A stretch of 64,000 bases of DNA from assembly GCA_025449115.1 (NCBI GenBank), contig JAHLKC010000066.1, positions 62,001 through 126,000 on the forward strand. Direction: 5' to 3'. This stretch comes from Chytridium lagenaria (Eukaryota > Chytridiomycota > Chytridiomycetes > Chytridiales > Chytridiaceae). This document shows, piece by piece, positions 11,960-22,119 of the stretch. The notes under the pieces were generated by a model that was not told the DNA's origin, made no database searches, and was given only the letters and a program-made list of their open reading frames with translations. Position numbers and translations under genes: made by a program. Position 1 is the stretch's first letter. Each line of letters begins with the position of its first letter.

Positions 11960-12545
11960 GCATGGTTGCTCCCCAAAACCTCAACACGTTTTAGCAACCA
12001 GCTTGCTCTATGATTCTAAACTCTGCATCATTCAAGCTCACCGTAACATTGTTAGTCTCCCGCGTCACGGCGCCCTCCTCCATTCTCTTCCCACTCCCCG
12101 CGCCACGGCCGCGGACTTTTGGCTTGCTCTCCCGCTGCCAGTCTTGGTCAGACTATGACTCCTGCTGAATTTCGTGTCATTGCTCGTTTGCTTGCTTATC
12201 CTTCTTCTCCCTGTGGCTGTCTTTTCCTCCCCTCAACTCTGCCCCCTCCTGCCAGGCTCATTTGGACTTCTTTGGCGACCACATCCTCCATTGCCACGGC
12301 TCCCTTAGGCTTACTACGCGCCATCACATGGTGAGAGATGGCTTGGTTGCGCTTGCGCGTACTGCTGGCATCCCTTGCACTCCTAAACCTGAGTAATCTC
12401 TCCTCTCCTTAACCAGAGTCGCTCTCCGCCCTGCTAATGTTTTGTTCCCCATGGCGTTGGTCTGACGGGCGCCATGCTCGTATTGATATCTCTGGCACCA
12501 CCCCCCTTCAAGGCCTCCTAGGTGCGCTCTATTTCCCCTGCTGCC
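11960..12545 (+). mobile_element. Decayed LINE-type reverse transcriptase C-terminal relic
   Basis: Fragments spread over all three plus frames match the tail of a non-LTR retrotransposon polyprotein family. In order I see QHVLATSLL, RHGALLHSLPTP (the GA..L..LP motif), MTPAEFRVIARLLAYP, CQAHLDFFGDHILHCHGS (the D.FGDH...C zinc-binding motif), RHHMVRDGLVALARTAGI, RPANVLFP and then RIDISGTTPLQGLL. Frame changes and stop codons occur between these blocks, more densely than in neighbouring genes. No RT catalytic core (YxDD) or endonuclease is seen, so this is a truncated or eroded copy. The family assignment rests on motif order only. Confidence 0.55.
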
Positions 12546-13360
12546 GTCCTTGCTCGTGAGCACCAGAAATGCCTGAAAAGTTCCGCGTGTGGTTATGTTT
12601 TCATTCCCTTTGTTTTTTAATTCCTTTGGTCATTTGGGACCTGCGGCGGTTTCTTTGTTGCGACGCCTCCAAAGTGTTTATCAACAACAACACGAGCTTC
12701 TTTGTGAGGAGGCTCGTGTTGCCTAGCGTCAGCTGTTGGCGCGTTATTCTTTTACCTTTGCTTCATTCTTTTTCTTTCTTGTAACGCAAGCACTCTTTAT
12801 TTTTCAAAACGCTATTTATTAGATAAGAAAGAGGCAACATGCGCATGTTTGTTAGAACAATGTGAACCTTTAAAAAACATTATAAAAATAACATCATTGC
12901 TCACAACCAGCGCTGCCCAACTTCCAAGCTGCTGTTCTTCACATTTTTCGGTGAGTATCTTATAGGAAGACGTAGTACAAATAGAATTTGAGCCATATTC
13001 ATGGTGAAGGGTTGAGTAGCCAATGAGGAGGGGTTGAGGGTCAAGGGTCAAGGGTCCAGTCGTCGGTTCGATTTCGTCCAATCAAAAGGGTCGAAGGGTC
13101 AGAGGGTTAACGGTCCAAAGGGTTGTTCGGTTGCGGTAATAGATGTTCCAATTCTTCGGTGTCGTGGATATATGAAACACGCCCACGGTAGCGGAAATGA
13201 CCAGGGGGGTGCTACAATTTTCTCATATTGCACTCCAAAAATAATGTCCGCCCCGACTTCATTTCACCATCCCATCCAACACCGTCGCCCTCCCTCGCAG
13301 CAGTCCCTACCATTCCGCCACTCCATTACAAGCCTCAAGTGCATCCTATGATGCCTTCGA
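12546..13360. other. Spacer with GGGTCAA-type short repeats
   Basis: Most of this stretch is unremarkable AT-rich DNA. At about 13026-13125 there is a purine-rich cluster of GGGTCAAG/GGGTCGAAGGGTC motifs, directly upstream of the transposase-like gene. It could belong to the left end of the proposed element. No gene is seen. Confidence 0.4.
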
Positions 13361-16300
13361 GCAAAGCACCGACCACCATCCACGCGGACGAAGCCGAAAT
13401 GATTTCAATGGTTACCGAAACCGACACCGTCGGCATTGACGACGGAGTTCTCCAACTTCCTTCCAGCGTTGATAAGTTAATGAATCTTCCTGAAGAAGAT
13501 GACGAGGACATGGACGAAGACCTGATGAAGGATGTCATGGAGGAGGAATTGATAAGGAGTAAGGTAAATTAGTTTTCTCTGGTGAATGGCTAATCCATAA
13601 GACTGCCGCATACGACAAAACCAAAACGGATAAGGAAAGATGCAGCAGGGCTCGCGCATCAATTCACCAAACTGAGTTCCTGAAGGCTGCAAAGAGCGTC
13701 TTATCCGAAATGGGGAAGGCAAAGGAGATGTTGCCGTTCCATCTGGACCGCTAGACTTCCAAGCCGTAAAAGTTTTTCCAGGATGTGCATGAAAAGACTC
13801 TTTATTGTACATCCTCAGGAGCAATATGAGGTGACTTTTTTAACTAATTTCAATACTAATGAACATAGGATTTAAAAGACTTTAAGTTTTCATGCCCGTT
13901 CTGCAAAAAAGTGTTGACGAAGAAAGGTTACCGGAACAGCATCCGAATGGTGTACGACCTCGACGATGTCGCTTACGTTATCATCGCACAGCTGGAGTGT
14001 GCCTCAAAGCCTCTATGTTCTGGATACGACGCAAAGTCGCCCGCCAAGTTTGGAATCTGCGACACAAGACTTTTAACGCAGCTTCCGCTATATGTGCAAG
14101 AAGGTAATTCTGATTTGATTTTTATTCTTCTTTAACTTAAAAAGATCTTGCCGTGTTGATGTCCACTCAAAGTGGCATCACAAGGCAGCTTCGTGATTTT
14201 ATTGTGAGCAACCATTTTAAAGTAGGAACTAATGGTCTTTTTAAAATAATAAGAAGTAAGTTTCTCCGCCATGCAAGCATAAAGCAGTTTCTAACATTCT
14301 TCCAGACCTTTACTTCGATCGTTTTATTCGTTGTATGATGTCTTATACTCGGCATTGGGAAACACGTACCGCCAAATCATCGGAAGTTTGTCCATCTTCG
14401 ACGACAACGCCGCGCGAAGGGGAGCCGCCAGCATCATCCATATCACGGCAAACCACATTGTCGATGAAAAATCCAGCAAAGACAGAAAGGAGGGGCGAAA
14501 TATGGAAGAAACTGTTTTCTTTTCGTGAAACAGAACCGTTCAACTTTGTCCAAGGATCAACATCTATTCTTCAAATCTGTTTTGACGAAGAAGGGTAAGG
14601 TACTTTGCATTTTATTATCCACTTACCGCTTTAATTTAAAGTTATCATGGCCAATGGCCATCTCTCTCATACCTACGAAGTTTGATTCCAGCGTTGACCA
14701 AAATTTCGAAGATGCCGGAAGTAGGGAGCAGGGTTATGGCACTTCTAAAAGGTAAAGCATTTTGTCTCGCAAAATAATAATGTAATGATAGGCTCCACAA
14801 TTGCATTTGACGTCAGTCACAAAGCTAATAATTTAAATCAAGTTCGGCAACGCAAAGACTATAAAGGTGTTGGTGAGAAGAAGAATGTGAAGGTGGCTAT
14901 CGGCACTTTATTGTGCATGAACGAATATAAAGAGGTCCTATCATATGTAAGTTAATTCATGTATTTTACTTATAGTTACTTAAACTGGCTTGAAGGCTTC
15001 GTTGATGACGTTAAAAAACGACGAGCTGAAGTATCACCTGAGCAAGTTAAAGAATAATCGGGATTGCCATGGATTAGGTGATCCCAAAATCGTGTTTCCG
15101 TTAGTTTTTTTTTTCCTTTGGGTTCAGCGTCGCGTTGAAAGTAATATTTTTATTTCTTTTATTTTTAGGACAACTGCAAATCCTTTCGAAGGCCAATAAA
15201 AGAAGTTTTCCCAGAAGCTATTGCGTTTCAAGACCTGGCTCATATCGAAAATCGGATTTTTGAAACGTTTAAACGATCAAGCTCTTTCCACGGTCAAGCC
15301 ATGCAGAAATTGAAGGCTTGTTTTTACACGAAGAAAAACATCGACGAGGGCGGGAAGAAATTTGTGGTTACAGCCATGCAAGTGCCAATTTTCATCAAGT
15401 CTGAATTGGAAGCATTTCAAAATCAGTAAGTGCCGCTCTTGCTTCGTTATTTTAAAAAAACGTAGCTATTCAAAGTACGATCTTTTTACCGAAAGAACTG
15501 CAGCCGCATTCGAAAATGTTTACAAGCACCTTACAGATCACGACTGTCTTTCTTGGCCCACAGGATTCAAGACATATATTGTCACAGGTTAAAATCTACG
15601 TCCTTCATAAAGCTGAAAATGTTTGTTTATTTGTAGATAACAAAAAGAAGATCATGGAGATACAAGGAACGTCAAAATGCGAGCGCATCCACCTAGACAT
15701 GATTGAATACTTTTTTAAGGTTGGCTAACCCATATTGATTTTACTTAACTTACATTAATTCATACGTTTTTAGTGCCCCGTGTCGCCGTCCACATTCGAA
15801 AACCGATTTTTACATTTTTTACGGAAAAAAATATTATCGCCGGTGCCGTAAATAGGGGGATGCTTTTCTGAAATTTGCCGGGTCTGGGTTACGCTCCGCC
15901 TTTTGATATCGAATATATTTCGATTTTGCAAACAAAAGACTGCATCTGAAGGCTCCGCTTCCTCAATGGCCAACACCACCGCAAGGAATCTCGAATTTCG
16001 ATTGCTATGATGTTCCTCCGGAATTTCGGGAAAGGTTGAAGGATTTGTTGTGAATCGAGAGACTTTATCGAATGCTCTACATGTAACTCACATACATCAT
16101 GCGGGTAATTGGAAATTTCCTTTTTTGTTTTAAGACTTACCGACTGCTTGTTTCTAATTTATCTTTTTCTAAAAGGTCTCAAGGAAGAGGAAGACCCGCT
16201 CACGTACGAGGATTCTTCTGTACCCGCGGCTTCCGTCCCCATCGCTTCTGTCGCCACGACTTTGGTTCCCATGGCTTTCGCCCCTTTGACCTCGGTATCT

Positions 16301-18018
16301 GTGGAACTCACGTCTCCACATCCCACCGCCGCATTTGTTGTTACAACCCCGCTCACATCAGCTCCATTGGCTCCTACACTTGAACAAGCCAATCTTCTAC
16401 TCTCAATTCCGAAACATTGCCGTCAGAAGCATCTTCTTTAACAGAAGCGACACCGCCGTCCCCACGTTCCGTCCACCAACTCCAAGAAAATGATTTGCTC
16501 GATTTACAATTGTGTCGCGACGATGAATCCGAATTACTTTCACCTCCCCCGCATTTTGCCTTATTCGACATCGAGTCCGAATTTCGTGTCCCGCCATCTA
16601 GCACTGAGGATAATTTGGATTGGACAGGAAGATTACTTAAACGACCAGGGCCTGATGATGAGGGTGGACAGCGGGATAGTGTTTATGTTCCGCGAAAACG
16701 GCAGATGCCAATGCTCTCGACAGCATCCGTTGAAAGTCGGTATTTTTGGAAGAAAAGAACATTCCTGTTTCTGAAGCTGACTTCATTTAATGAGTAAGTT
16801 TTGCTTTTCTCCTATTTATTAAAACATTTGCCTGATCACGCTTTCGAAATTTAGGAATGAGTATAAGTTAATGGCAAATATTCTGGGCCAAATGAAGATT
16901 CCGATTATTGGTACAAATCCCGAGTTGATGGACGACGAAAGGTAAAGTGGTTTAAAACGATTTTTAACTCACATTTGTAGTAAAAAACTTTCATGTCTTT
17001 GTGGAATGTTGGATTCATGAATGATCGTAAAAACATTAGAAAGCTTGCGTCGATGGAGATAGCTGCTCAATTTTTGAAGCAATATGGAAATCTACAGAGA
17101 AAGTGAGTTTTTTTTTAATTTTTTTTTTTTAAAAAAACCAACGATAATTTACAATTCCCGTGATGTTTGCCTTGCACCGCAGACGGCGGAGCGATCGACT
17201 TTTCGAGCGAAGCTTCAAGCAACAAGCATTGAAACCGACATATTGGGTCATTCAAGAATTCGTAACATACAAGGTATCAACTCTGGTTAAACTACATTTA
17301 ACATGCATAATTATATTAATATTACAGTCTCTCAAAAACCACAAGATACCAAACGGCCTCTATTACCCCGTCAGCCTGGCCGAGATTCTGCTGGCTCTAC
17401 CAACTTCTTCCGTAATCAAGAATTTCACGTCACTCACCTTCCGAACTTCAATCTACCTTTGCCCAATTCCACAAGCCTCCACTGTCTCATTATCACATGC
17501 ATCAGCAAGCACACCAACGGGATGATTTTTATGCGCCGCACACGTTACCTATGCCCCAACATCAGCATCAGCAAAAACCTTGGGAACATACCTTTTATCC
17601 GCCTCCGCGTCATCCGTCACTGCCTCCACTCCAGTACCAGCCTCAATTACCAGACGAGATGCATGCAACGCAGTCGCGGCTTCCACCCCAGCACTTCCAC
17701 CAGCGTAGATCGAACGAGATGCTGTTTGCGCCACGTCAGCAGTTACCTCCGTCTCAACATCACCCACAGCAAACACCTTGGGATGTCATGAATTATCAAC
17801 CAACATCCTATCTACAGGAGCAAATCGATGGTCGCCGCAGCCAACGGATTGAAATTGGACAGCCACGGCAAATCGATTCGCGCCGAAGATCCGATGGCGG
17901 ACTATGTAAACGTTGCGGGGTGCAGCAAAAAGGGCATCCTAAGTTTAATTGCTCGGACGGAATTCTCCGGCAAGACGTATCCGTTGTTTTCCCCATCGTG
18001 CCACGCGGAACTGGATAG
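13361..18018 (+). CDS. Transposase-like protein: zinc cluster, RNase H-like motifs, zinc knuckle
   Basis: This is an intron-rich gene resembling a fungal family (basidiomycetes, chytrids) that combines a zinc-binding N-terminus with a DDE/RNase H-like core. I cannot name the family with certainty. Exon 1 (from ATG 13361/13364) is acidic. A cysteine segment follows (SCPFCKKVLTKKGYRNSIR, VYDLDD, LECASKPLC; exon from 13869), then TQLPLYV and STQSGITRQL, as in that family. The core has FDVSHK (Asp codon at 14809), MNEYKEVLSY, DELKYHLSKLK, DNCKSF (Asp codon at 15169), FQDLAHIENRIFETF, TDHDCLSWPTGF and GTSKCERIHLDMIEYF. A Pro/Ala-rich linker, a QH-rich region and a CCHC-like knuckle (CKRCGVQQKGHPKFNC, about 17908-17955) close the protein. 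At least eight introns and several frame slips make the exact product uncertain. It may be two genes, the first ending at 16053. Confidence 0.68.
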
Positions 18019-18514
18019 AATCATTTACTTTCCGAAAGTTTGGCATGAGAAAAGCTCGAAGGGCTCGACGTCAACTATCGTGGAGCTTCTCGACAATGTG
18101 TTCAAGAAGGTGCACAACATTGACGTTCTCGATCTACTTCGTAAGCTGAAAAAGACGGCGGTGTTGCAGACCAGGCTAGGCTCATGGAAGTTATTTGCAT
18201 ATTTCGGAAAAAAAATGGATATTCGACAGATGTGGATAGTGAAGACGAAGGGTTTGGATGAGAGGAGATATGATGGAAGTAGGGACAAGCAGGGGCTTCA
18301 CGGCATCAAGACGTCCGTCATTATTATCAAGACGTCGACGCTTTACAAGATTACTCTTATAATTATGAAGAATAATAAATTACTTCTTTCATCTGATTGG
18401 ATATTTATTTGTTCTTTATGTTCTTTAGCTTCATTGTTCTTTTGTTCATCCAAAATTCCAGTCAAGGGAGCCCTTGACCGCTTTTTTAATTACATAAAGA
18501 CCTTTTGTACTTAA
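17828..18514 (+). CDS. Overlapping open frame, possible continuation of the transposase-like gene
   Basis: A 228-codon frame overlaps the zinc-knuckle frame by 191 bases. Its middle (FPKVWHEKSS, IVELLDNVFKKVHNIDVLDL, RKLKKTAVLQTRL; about 18030-18180) looks protein-like. The last 60 codons, rich in I, L and F, do not. A frame slip near 17990 joining the knuckle frame to this one would extend the upstream protein to about 18370, where AATAA signals begin. I do not recognise a domain, and an independent gene is less likely. Confidence 0.3.
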   Translation: MVAAANGLKLDSHGKSIRAEDPMADYVNVAGCSKKGILSLIARTEFSGKTYPLFSPSCHAELDRIIYFPKVWHEKSSKGSTSTIVELLDNVFKKVHNIDVLDLLRKLKKTAVLQTRLGSWKLFAYFGKKMDIRQMWIVKTKGLDERRYDGSRDKQGLHGIKTSVIIIKTSTLYKITLIIMKNNKLLLSSDWIFICSLCSLASLFFCSSKIPVKGALDRFFNYIKTFCT

Positions 18515-18587
18515 TGTTCATTATAAATCTATTTTTAGAGTACCATTGCCTTTTTTACATTATTAAATACATTATTCTTCATCCGAT

Positions 18588-19837
18588 ATGGAGCATTCTG
18601 TTAACGACGCTCTTTCCAGCTTCTTTACGCTGTGCGGCGACACCACGAACGCGGTTAACAGAAACTTAACGTTTCTCGCATACGTCAGGAAATCCGTTGA
18701 CGATAAAGCCGACAATAGATCCCTCGATGATCAGATTGCTATGATCAAGAAATGGGGAAGTGAGAAAGGGTGAATATTAATATTAATTATTGATGGTACC
18801 GTCACGATTCTGATCTATTTACTTAGCTTCAACATTCTTCCACGCCACTTCTCTGATTTAGCTTCTGGTGCGTCAACAACACGGAAAGGGCTTCAACAAG
18901 CGTTGGACCTCGTGTTGTCAGACAACAGCATTGCAGGAATTGCTGTTTACCGACTTGACAGGCTTTCTCGCAACACATGCCATGCTTTGGGTATCATTCG
19001 GGATCTTGTCGGTAAGGCTTTTATTGTTGTATAGATAAACCTAATAACTTTTCATTTTAGAAAAAGACAAAACTTCGTGAGCGTCTCGGAAGAAGGATTG
19101 GTGTTTGGACCCATCGCAAATGAGTCAGAAGAGGTTTCTGCAACAACACACCTTCTGGTTAAGTGTTTATTTGCAGAAATTGAGAGACTCAGCGCAATGA
19201 AGGTTATTATATTTCTTATTTAAATTATTGAATTGTGTTTTAGAGAACAAAGGACCACTCAACCGCACGGAGGCAACAGGAAATCGGGCAGTCGAGGTAC
19301 TCTCCTTTCGGATTTCTATTTGCCGGAACCTTTGGGAACTCGGAACGTTACGCATTTGAGTCAACAGTTTTAAAGGATCGCACCGAAGAGAACGGATTGC
19401 AAGAGCCGTTGCGTTTAGTTCCGCATAACGGTGAGGCGGAATGCGCTCTTCACGGAGCGGCTTTTATGATATCCTGTTACGCGAAAAAAAAATTTGGCCT
19501 GCCCCTCGTCACGTCTTAAGTTTCTTGAAGGTAAAAGGGATATATAAAAACTACAGAAAGACAGGTAAGGTAGAACTTCTGACCTATCTATTTTTATTTG
19601 ATAGATTATACTAACAAAAATCTTGCAGGGGGAGATGCAAGTGGATTCGTGAGGTTGATAAAGAAATTTTTCGTTATCAACTATCTACCGTATCCAAGAC
19701 ATCCGTTGCAGTTGAGATCGCTAAAAGGTTAACAGGTAAGAGTTTTAGGAAATATCAAAAATAAATCTAATAAGAATCTATGTTTAGATGATCTTGATGA
19801 GTCGCCTCTTATGAGCGACGACCGCGAGATGGATTAA
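18588..19837 (+). CDS. Intron-containing serine recombinase (resolvase/invertase fold)
   Basis: This encodes a site-specific recombinase that would cut DNA through a 5'-phosphoserine. Six exons fit: 18588-18769, 18827-19011, 19061-19202, 19244-19564, 19629-19735 and 19788-19837, with GT...AG introns of 40-65 nt. The catalytic set is complete: Tyr32, Arg34 and nucleophile Ser36 in AYVRKS, Asp71 and Arg80 in HFSDLASGASTTRKGL, and Asp105, Arg106 and Arg109 in VYRLDRLSRN. The long helix E region follows (LFAEIERLSAMK), then a recombinase-type DNA-binding segment (YSPFGFLFAG, RLVPHNGEAECALHGAAFMI, VLSFLKVKGIYKNYRKT). The protein is about 330 residues. That is longer than a small resolvase and shorter than a phage large serine integrase, and I see no zinc ribbon. 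Slips sit at A-runs (19069, about 19485) and the GGGG at 19629. It lies 570 bp downstream of the transposase-like gene on the same strand. Confidence 0.85.
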
Positions 19838-20111
19838 TAACTTTTTTTACGTTTTTTTCTTTCTGCTCTATTTCATTTTGTACTGAAGTAACAACAATGA
19901 TTCTATGGCAAATACATTTGAAAATAGAGAGCCTTTTTATTTAAACCGTCTATATTTATTATATGTATATCTTCATCTTTTTTTTTCTTTTTTTTTCCTA
20001 AGTCAATGCCTTCACGTCTCCACCGTGCTGGATCAATTTCCGCCGATCCGAACTACTCGTCTACGCAGGATTACCGCTGGATTGCAAAAATTGAGGATTT
20101 TTAGGAATTTC

Positions 20112-20137
20112 TGGCGGAAAATGTCGTTTTTCCGCCA
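20112..20137. repeat. Perfect 10-bp inverted repeat (hairpin)
   Basis: TGGCGGAAAA, a 6-nt spacer, then TTTTCCGCCA form a perfect stem 275 bp downstream of the recombinase stop. It lies in non-coding DNA. It could be a recombination site, a terminal structure of the element or a transcription-end hairpin. Function is unknown. Confidence 0.6.
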
Positions 20138-20161
20138 TTTTTCCATAGAGCGGGGTTGTGG

Positions 20162-20199
20162 CGACGTCTACACCAATCGGGCTGATGTCGACGTCTACA
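20162..20199. repeat. Direct repeat of CGACGTCTACA
   Basis: The 11-mer CGACGTCTACA occurs at 20162-20172 and again at 20189-20199, 27 bp apart, just right of the hairpin. Each copy contains the palindrome GACGTC. A crossover-site or binding-site role for the neighbouring recombinase is possible but untested. Confidence 0.5.
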
Positions 20200-22119
20200 T
20201 GTAAAATTTCACCCATTTTTCTTTTCCCTGAAAAATAATAAAAAAATTTAAAAAAATCATAACCAGATATGGGACGTGGTTCCATCCCTCCCAAGTCCCA
20301 ACCCTATACATCATCACCTCTCAAAACGGACCAGCCCTTATTTATTTTCAAAAAACGTAATACATATTTAAAATTTATAAGAGCTCACTCTCGTCAACAG
20401 TCAAAACCTCACAGGGACAAGAGGTATTTTTGCTTAGTGTGCGCTGGGCTGTCTTTTGATTGATATGGGGCGTGGAAATGGGGGAGGGAGGGAGGCACGT
20501 TTTCACGAATGGTGAGATTGGCATCCCATATTGGTGTGTGTGTGTGTTAATTTGGTGGGCAAGGTAGTAAGTAGTCAGGTAAGGTTGGTCAGTGTCAAGC
20601 AAGTCAAGCAATCGACCCGTCATTATCATCATTCATTATCTTTGTGTTTCGGATTAAAGTATGAGGGGAATGAGGGGAATAATGGGAGATGGGCCGACCG
20701 AGATGATCCACTATCCACCACCAAGCATGACTAACTTATAAGATTGTCATTATCATTAAAACAATAAGTTATACATTCCTTGGTATGTAGGTAAATATTC
20801 ATTTAATAATTAATATTTATTTATTATGTTTTGGAATTAAACAACCCCATGCAAGAGAAACTAAAGCTATGTTTTATACCCAATAAATATTTAATAGGAA
20901 GGATATAAAGGATATAGAGGGATGTAATCATTCCTATTGGTTGTATCTGTAATCATTCCTATTGGCTATATTTGCACCAATCAGTAACAAGCATTTGAGA
21001 AGAAATATAAAAGAGAAGAAAGGAGAAAGAAAGAAGAAGGGTTTTATTTAATTTGTTTCAAAAAAGATGAAATAAATTAATAATAATTATGTAAAAGATG
21101 GTGAAACATTCCTTGTATAACACACGGCTTGGCCCTGATCGAAAACAGAATAAGGCTTTGTGTCACTACCACTTTCTTCATTTATTCCATTTAATAAATC
21201 ATCCAAATTGTACCTACCTAAAATGAGGTAATAATAATATATATATTATTTTATAGGGATATTTATAGGCGCATTTCTGGGTGCGCTATTAACTTATAAA
21301 TGTGTTTCTAATTCCGGTCACCTTGTTCTTCAATCACGATAAAAGAAGGCGTATCATTACTTTAACAGAATGAGAGAAGGATGAAGGAATAATGGGTTCA
21401 TGTGTTGTTTGAATCGAGGATACCATTGTAAGTGGGAGGGAGGGGCTATTCTTTATTGTGTTTGTACGTGATTGGAGGTTGATAAAGTATATTTCCATAA
21501 TGATGATGTACAGGAGGCACGGCTGGACGTTTGCAATATGGGTAATGTGCGGCTATATTATTATTTATTTATTACTGGATTCATCCCTCTCTCACTCAAC
21601 AACTCGATCGAGTATTTACTTATTTATTAGTTGGCGCTACCTACCTACCTAGTAGCATCGCCTCAAACATTCATAGTCAACAAAAAATAAACGGCGTTCT
21701 GGATGGTTAATAATTACTAAATATATAATTACTCTATTAGAAAATGAGTGTGAGTGAGGTGGATGTCTTTAAAATGAAGTCAAGGAAAGAATGGACAAGA
21801 GCGCCTTTGACCGCAAGTATTATTAATATAATTTAATTTGTCTTTAGAAGGAATTATTTAATTAAAAAGAAAAAGGGAGAAACAACACGTCCTTGTCACT
21901 GATTGGTTGATTTTAGAATTTATATTTTAAGACTCCGATGATGATGAATTGATGATATATTTATTTATTCCATCCATCAATCAAAAGGGACCATGCTCCA
22001 TTCAGCAACATCATTGGCATTTGATTGGTTAGTATTTTGTATAACATGAGCATTATATATTATTATTGTTGCAGAATGGAAAGGGAATGAATGAGAGAGA
22101 GGGAGATAGAAAGAATGAG

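Follow-up and report, generated by a model that had tools for sequence, protein, structure and literature searches.

The window analysed here is a stretch of 64,000 nucleotides from the chytrid Chytridium lagenaria (C66:62001-126000 of a 41.9-Mb genome; C numbers are contigs of this genome, and positions given without one refer to the window). It contains a mobile element with two enzyme genes, a multi-exon transposase gene with DUF6729 and Mutator-like similarity and a spliced serine recombinase gene downstream of it on the same strand. The two genes do form a pair, and both lie inside one mobile element, as an earlier note on this DNA had proposed: copies in the window and on C15, C18, C32 and C135 carry them in the same order, and the element has common ends and target-site duplications. 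We consider it probable that this is a composite DNA transposon in which a DDE-type transposase would carry out insertion, while the internal serine recombinase would serve as an accessory resolving enzyme acting between the genes. The mapped ends are as follows.

12950-20213, plus strand: whole composite element, 7264 bp (left limit at the onset of similarity to the C15 copy; right limit at a terminus like those of C18, C32 and C135, together with the target-site duplication)
12942-12949: left copy of the 8-bp target-site duplication CATTTTTC, directly outside the element
20214-20221: right copy of the 8-bp target-site duplication CATTTTTC, directly outside the element
12950-12974, plus strand: left terminal sequence GGTGAGTATCTTATAGGAAGACGTA, from comparison of the ends
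20189-20213, minus strand: right terminal sequence, read outward-in as GGTGAAATTTTACATGTAGACGTCG, a degenerate inverted repeat of the left end

The duplication abuts GGTGAGTATC... at the left end and ...AAATTTCACC at the right end. The right end was placed by similarity to GGCGAAAATTTGATATG, a terminus common to C18, C32 and C135. The terminal inverted repeats are degenerate (GGTGA...TCACC), with 19 of 26 columns matching and the first 5 perfect, and when either end was tried at other places, 3999 on the right and 3999 on the left, none reached the score of this end pair. The 16-mer GGAAGACGTAGTACAA (12965-12980) occurs without mismatch at 4 places of the genome, once each in the window and C32 and twice in C18, all of them at element ends, and allowing one mismatch added nothing; the reversed pattern, searched as a control with one mismatch allowed, gave 5 matches, so that the count of 4 alone proves nothing. 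Identical 8-mers occur at random pairs of places in the flanks of the window element with a frequency of 3.9e-5, and by our own arithmetic the chance of the window duplication is about 0.5% when five bases of slack are granted per side. The C32 copy is likewise bordered on both sides by an 8-bp duplication, GAAAAAAT (random background 5.7e-5), the right copy of which starts at 147759, two bases past the last base that BLAST aligned with C18 (147756). Read in the orientation of C32, the window duplication is GAAAAATG, a target similar to that of C32. A fixed 8-bp duplication is thus found at 2 of the 2 copies that have both ends and unlike flanks, and because of these duplications insertion of the element with both genes is of the DDE type. 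The limits of 13200 to 20200 given in the earlier note pointed to the right region and were slightly short, and its expectation of copies with common ends held at the left side, where similarity to C15 begins at the same place, while the right end of the C15 copy was not found. An empty site, which the note had suggested looking for, did not turn up in a search that covered the left flank of the window element: these 750 bp matched 19 other stretches, all of which end by base 593 and so stop short of the insertion point. The flank (12204-12793) belongs to a dispersed repeat, of which 19 further partial matches were among those listed.

The distribution of copies in the genome, for which all locus counts are lower bounds, also speaks for a single element. 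A DNA search with window 12900-20300 as query found a second, close copy with both genes at C15:252147-258786, collinear with window 12949-19803 and embedded in unlike flanking sequence. A Pfam search for resolvases pointed to C22, C18, C32 and C135 besides the window. C18, C32 and C135 represent a diverged subfamily with long shared blocks and common ends, in which relatives of the transposase exons, the CCHC knuckle and the recombinase lie on one strand in the gene order of the window, so that the genes co-occur in this subfamily as well. When single-protein searches, the DNA search and a reading around C22 are pooled, the recombinase family occupies at least seven loci (C15, C18, C22, C32, C50, C66 and C135), and a transposase adjoins it at 6 of 7, though at C50 only as relic pieces. 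The transposase family has at least six copies (C18 twice, C15, C32, C66 and C135) plus a weak match on C14; the recombinase follows downstream in five, and the sixth (copy A of C18) is cut off earlier by the start of the contig. A 76-bp fragment match lies on C97. No mapped ends exclude either gene, and the separation that would have spoken against a joint element was seen only as a solo recombinase on C22, with no match to the C32 transposase within the 19 kb read around it. Five of the seven DUF6729 matches in the genome (C15:98803, C14, C57, C60 and C98) have no recombinase match nearby, so the recombinase is the mark of a single lineage and does not accompany DUF6729 genes in general.

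The genes of the window copy comprise the following features.

13348-18020, plus strand: multi-exon transposase gene, disrupted in the window copy (predicted exon limits and gene end)
13869-14135, plus strand: open frame with the DUF6729 zinc-binding exon (PF20499 E 2.3e-4; this exon by itself stays below the curated cut-off)
14809-14811, plus strand: proposed first catalytic Asp, by its motif (FDVSHK)
15169-15171, plus strand: proposed second catalytic Asp, by its motif (DNCKSF, then DLAHI)
15681-15683, plus strand: proposed catalytic Glu, by its motif (GTSKCERIH; GSSNCENTH in C32)
17905-17952, plus strand: CCHC-like knuckle CKRCGVQQKGHPKFNC, conserved as CKRCGKVQKGHGKYAC in C18 by sequence comparison
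18588-19837, plus strand: serine recombinase gene, spliced, with the catalytic Ser codon at 18693-18695 (predicted limits)

The transposase is made up of a DUF6729 zinc domain, a Mutator-like DDE core, a Q/H/P-rich region and the CCHC knuckle. Most of these parts had been picked out in the earlier note and are indeed present: the zinc-cluster exon with its weak DUF6729 match, the Asp motifs FDVSHK (14806-14823) and DNCKSF (from 15169), the knuckle and, further downstream, the serine recombinase, all on one strand with short GT-AG introns. A Pfam scan of 7 open frames from this region matched 2 (DUF6729 and PF00239), the other 5 being without a match. The C32 copy matches DUF6729 above the cut-off (E 2.2e-12). 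The concatenated DDE-core exons of the window, which include FDVSHK and DNCKSF, match Transposase_mut above the cut-off (PF00872, E 3.1e-5), and MULE is matched below the cut-off by the C32 model (E 2.3e-4) and by the database proteins P0020 and P0021; a Mutator-type assignment, drawn from these weak profile matches to Transposase_mut and MULE, is tentative. The aspartates at 14809 and 15169 and the glutamate at 15681 are the candidate DDE residues. The core matched no PDB sequence, and P0020 and P0021 lack the first catalytic strand. Among the best 7978 candidates of a protein database, the only relatives of the transposase were two C. lagenaria proteins.

The transposase is kept by purifying selection, as seen between C32 and C18. 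A script that compared these two copies yielded a computed model with an open transposase reading across many short-intron exons, and over its 797 codons the rates of silent (dS) and replacement (dN) change are 1.04 and 0.082 (dN/dS 0.078), in a model that by construction favours silent changes. A second count, over the exons of the database model P0020, which is independent of the script, gave dS 0.87, dN 0.085 and dN/dS 0.098 over 457 codons, with 56 of 514 codons excluded for alignment gaps and one codon being a stop in C32. The script also continued through the recombinase and so does not set the border between the genes, and another database model, P0023 on C18, fuses the CCHC part to the recombinase, so that the border given here is provisional.

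The serine recombinase matches PF00239 at E 2.5e-9 on one exon of the window and at E 5.3e-23 in the C32 copy. Its catalytic residues Y, R, S, D, R, S and R are invariant in alignments of 5, 7 and 12 proteins, and the Tyr, Arg, Ser and DR..SR residues are shared invariantly with bacterial relatives, too. Between the window and C32, the proportion of replacement differences (pN) is 0.20 over 233 codons at which silent sites are saturated. The catalytic domain lies near the N-terminus with a C-terminal extension behind it, and neither a PF07508 recombinase domain nor a zinc ribbon was matched. In a 5.8-billion-protein database, from which the best 7998 candidates by shared words were scored, two C. 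lagenaria proteins, one further assembly protein and Rhizoclosmatium sp. JEL0117 HDU79_011922 stand out as close relatives, with bacterial recombinases as weak matches behind them; the C-terminal region was seen only in the chytrid or assembly-protein relatives. Searches of viral and genome contig collections gave 46 and 35 pattern matches, none of which was confirmed. An AlphaFold model of the C22 protein (mean predicted local distance difference test score 67.6, predicted template modelling score 0.47) is of low confidence in its C-terminal part, and its significant Foldseek matches are serine integrases and resolvases.

What the recombinase does for the element is suggested by two mosaic pairs of copies, which bear on the stretch between the modules and on a neighbouring rearrangement.

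17117-18587, plus strand: junction zone between the modules, with the mosaic boundary, small inversions and a proposed res-like site
about 17971-18049: 79-bp segment in opposite orientation to its counterpart in C15, where it is bounded by CAAGAC/GTCTTG

C18 and C32 are 67-93% identical per 100-column bin in their transposase halves (74-75% by BLAST in long blocks), and over the last 2.5 kb their identity climbs via 92-93% to 97-100%, introns and spacers included (one bin of the comparison is empty through an indel), with the switch at C32:142517-142417, at the CCHC exon. The window and C15 have a mean identity of 96% over 17889-19146 (bins 88-99%) and of 86% over 19147-19803 (bins 77-90%). 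To the left of the switch, their bins range over 75-92% in a gap-rich alignment, with BLAST identities of 70-81% for the coding blocks of the transposase and 86% for the first 170 bases of the element. Here the left switch falls just before the CCHC exon, so that the left switches of both mosaics lie beside this exon. In bacterial Tn3 elements, according to excerpts of PMC7157771, mosaics of this kind arise by exchange at res, which adjoins the resolvase gene. Since the mosaics switch near the same intergenic place, and given the Tn3 precedent, we propose that a res-like site lies in this zone. For the recombinase, the most likely role is that of an internal enzyme akin to a resolvase, because in two copy pairs the recombinase portion shows far higher identity than the transposase portion and the switches lie near one another.

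In the mechanism that we favour, the DUF6729/Mutator-like DDE transposase would act at the short degenerate terminal repeats and insert the element with 8-bp duplications, and the internal serine recombinase would be an accessory site-specific recombinase with its site between the two genes. There it would most likely resolve directly repeated copies or cointegrates that arise from transposition, and diverged copies may swap recombinase modules as a by-product. More tentatively, and with the balance of our judgement still somewhat against it, the element may be the eukaryotic equivalent of Tn3: a DDE transposon that moves replicatively (paste-and-copy), that resolves its fused intermediates with its own recombinase at an internal site, that arose independently by capture of a recombinase in chytrids and in which res recombination shuffles modules between lineages.

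Several observations weigh against this interpretation. When the junction zone was scanned for inverted repeats, nothing but short weak pairs turned up and no res-like site was identified, there are only two mosaics, and gene conversion is a rival that explains the same mosaics, if less specifically. In the window/C15 pair, the contrast on the right side is modest, and C15 lacks most of window 17117-17888, a gap that may by itself set the boundary. At the ends, the outermost bases on the transposase side of C32 differ from those of the window, and target-site duplications are seen at only two copies. The others are uninformative: the right end of C15 is missing from our map and no second occurrence of the 8 bp preceding its left end was seen within the stretch searched, the similarity of C135 to C18 stops at a nested repeat, and copies A and B on C18 abut head to tail with no spacer. 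This C18 pair has readings other than a cointegrate, and no cointegrate was seen. Finally, there is the solo recombinase on C22. The head-to-tail pair on C18 was set aside as evidence, since it could be a tandem or the result of a second insertion at one 8-bp target.

The window copy looks broken, and other copies in the genome look more intact. Reading by eye, we noted a frame change inside one exon near 13745 and an apparent one in the recombinase near 19073 that is also present in C15 and could be explained by an unusual splice site. The 79-bp inversion closes a frame that continues in C15.

The best-surviving alternative, which we regard as unlikely but well short of negligible, accepts the same composite element and takes the recombinase for a captured passenger outside transposition, serving for example self-regulation or competition between elements, with the mosaics made by gene conversion. 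Multi-copy elements commonly convert one another, and the DUF6729 loci without a recombinase as well as the recombinase without a transposase on C22 are in keeping with a passenger. What argues against it is that the position beside the transposase is conserved and that the catalytic residues are kept in two subfamilies whose transposases share only about 40% identity in the best exon, despite saturated silent sites.

We find it improbable that the serine recombinase itself mobilises the element, in the manner of IS607 or the large serine integrases, with the DDE protein as an accessory. Such a role could draw on the IS607-like serine recombinases that accompany Fanzor2 in eukaryotic elements (excerpts of PMC3627910), on Foldseek, which ranks large serine integrases first (template modelling score 0.36 to the query, with low confidence outside the catalytic domain), and on the best NCBIfam matches of the recombinase (CcrB, XisF and the IS607 transposase), all of which are below the cut-off. 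Yet the transposase is under purifying selection, and the element has 8-bp duplications and inverted-repeat ends, neither of which IS607 has according to excerpts of PMC6188088; insertion driven by the serine recombinase is disfavoured by these features. Still less credible is a DNA invertase that flips short segments of the junction zone as a switch for expression or for protein ends. The 79-bp inversion and an inverted stretch in the C50 relic (corresponding to window 17549-17755), both in or near that zone, would suit an invertase, but the former is bounded in C15 by mere 6-bp repeats, known serine invertase sites being much longer, and breaks a frame that runs on in C15, and the C50 copy is a decayed relic. 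That independent neighbouring genes were merely copied by segmental duplication can be dismissed in spite of the solo recombinase on C22: chance adjacency is ruled out by the common ends, the target-site duplications and the unlike flanks of five loci with both genes (the left neighbour of the C18 copy being another copy).

The composite transposon that we favour combines traits of several known systems. As in the bacterial Tn3 family (DDE transposase TnpA, serine resolvase TnpR and a res site), a DDE transposase and a serine recombinase share one element, with the PF00239 gene inside the mapped ends, and DDE-type ends are accompanied by a short target duplication. A Tn3-like division of labour, with DDE insertion and resolution by a serine recombinase, would fit these features. 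The chytrid genes are, in contrast to those of Tn3, eukaryotic and spliced, the ends are degenerate, the res site is only proposed, and the duplication measures 8 bp, not the 5 bp of the Tn3 family. The transposase differs as well, since Pfam scans matched DUF6729, MULE and Transposase_mut and no Tn3 transposase. Module exchange beside the recombinase gene has likewise been reported for the Tn3 family (excerpts of PMC7157771). With Mutator-like elements and DUF6729 genes, the chytrid element shares Transposase_mut and MULE similarity as well as the DUF6729 zinc domain, and it differs from them by the added serine recombinase. Its target duplication lies inside the Mutator range, which includes 8 bp. 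IS607/Fanzor2 elements also place a serine recombinase inside a eukaryotic mobile element, but excerpts of PMC6188088 and PMC3627910 describe IS607 TnpA with an N-terminal DNA-binding domain and no target-site duplication or terminal inverted repeats, whereas the chytrid protein has its catalytic domain first and then a C-terminal region, in an element with DDE-type ends and a target-site duplication. The element proteins scanned gave no match to TnpB or Fanzor. Large serine integrases and small resolvases or invertases likewise have the catalytic domain and a long helix, and the chytrid recombinase is set apart from them by its own C-terminal region in place of PF07508 or zinc-ribbon matches.

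Some further observations concern the surroundings of the copies. The nested repeat of about 1.65 kb (C18:12171-13819) lies within the transposase gene in two copies, those of C18 and C135, is absent from C32 and has dozens of full or partial genome matches among the matches listed. The solo recombinase (C22:206031-207065) is an open frame of 345 amino acids, and beside it lies an unrelated stretch of 5.4 kb (C22:208304-213667) with perfect inverted repeats of 37 bp and a DDE_3 match below the cut-off. About 1.6 kb from the relic copy, C50:188355-196000 contains a direct duplication of about 3.8 kb with 95% identity. Another DUF6729 gene family comprises C60:19951 (L034), C98 (L038) and probably C57 (L035); a DNA_pol_A_exo1 3'-5' exonuclease domain lies downstream at L034 (PF01612 E 1.7e-13), with the same open frame at L038, and this family may be one more lineage of transposons that carries an uncommon additional enzyme.

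The eukaryotic serine-recombinase elements reported in excerpts of PMC3627910 are of the IS607-like Fanzor2 type, excerpts of PMC6431247 mention serine recombinases only for bacterial elements, and the abstract, the outline and a term search of Kojima 2025 (PMC12730594) gave no mention of a recombinase, a resolvase or chytrids. A search of the open-access literature, with subscription journals and Repbase outside its scope, found nothing on DUF6729, on serine recombinases with chytrids or on transposable elements of Chytridium lagenaria, and its leading matches contained no eukaryotic DDE element with a serine recombinase. It is possible that such an element has been described elsewhere. The presence of both enzymes inside mapped ends would make it testable whether eukaryotic transposons can use a replicative, cointegrate route; to our knowledge, no eukaryotic DDE transposon is known to carry a resolution enzyme. 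The chytrid element would likewise make it testable how serine recombinases work on the linear, chromatin-packed chromosomes of eukaryotes, and a serine recombinase native to the eukaryotic nucleus would be of practical interest for genome engineering.

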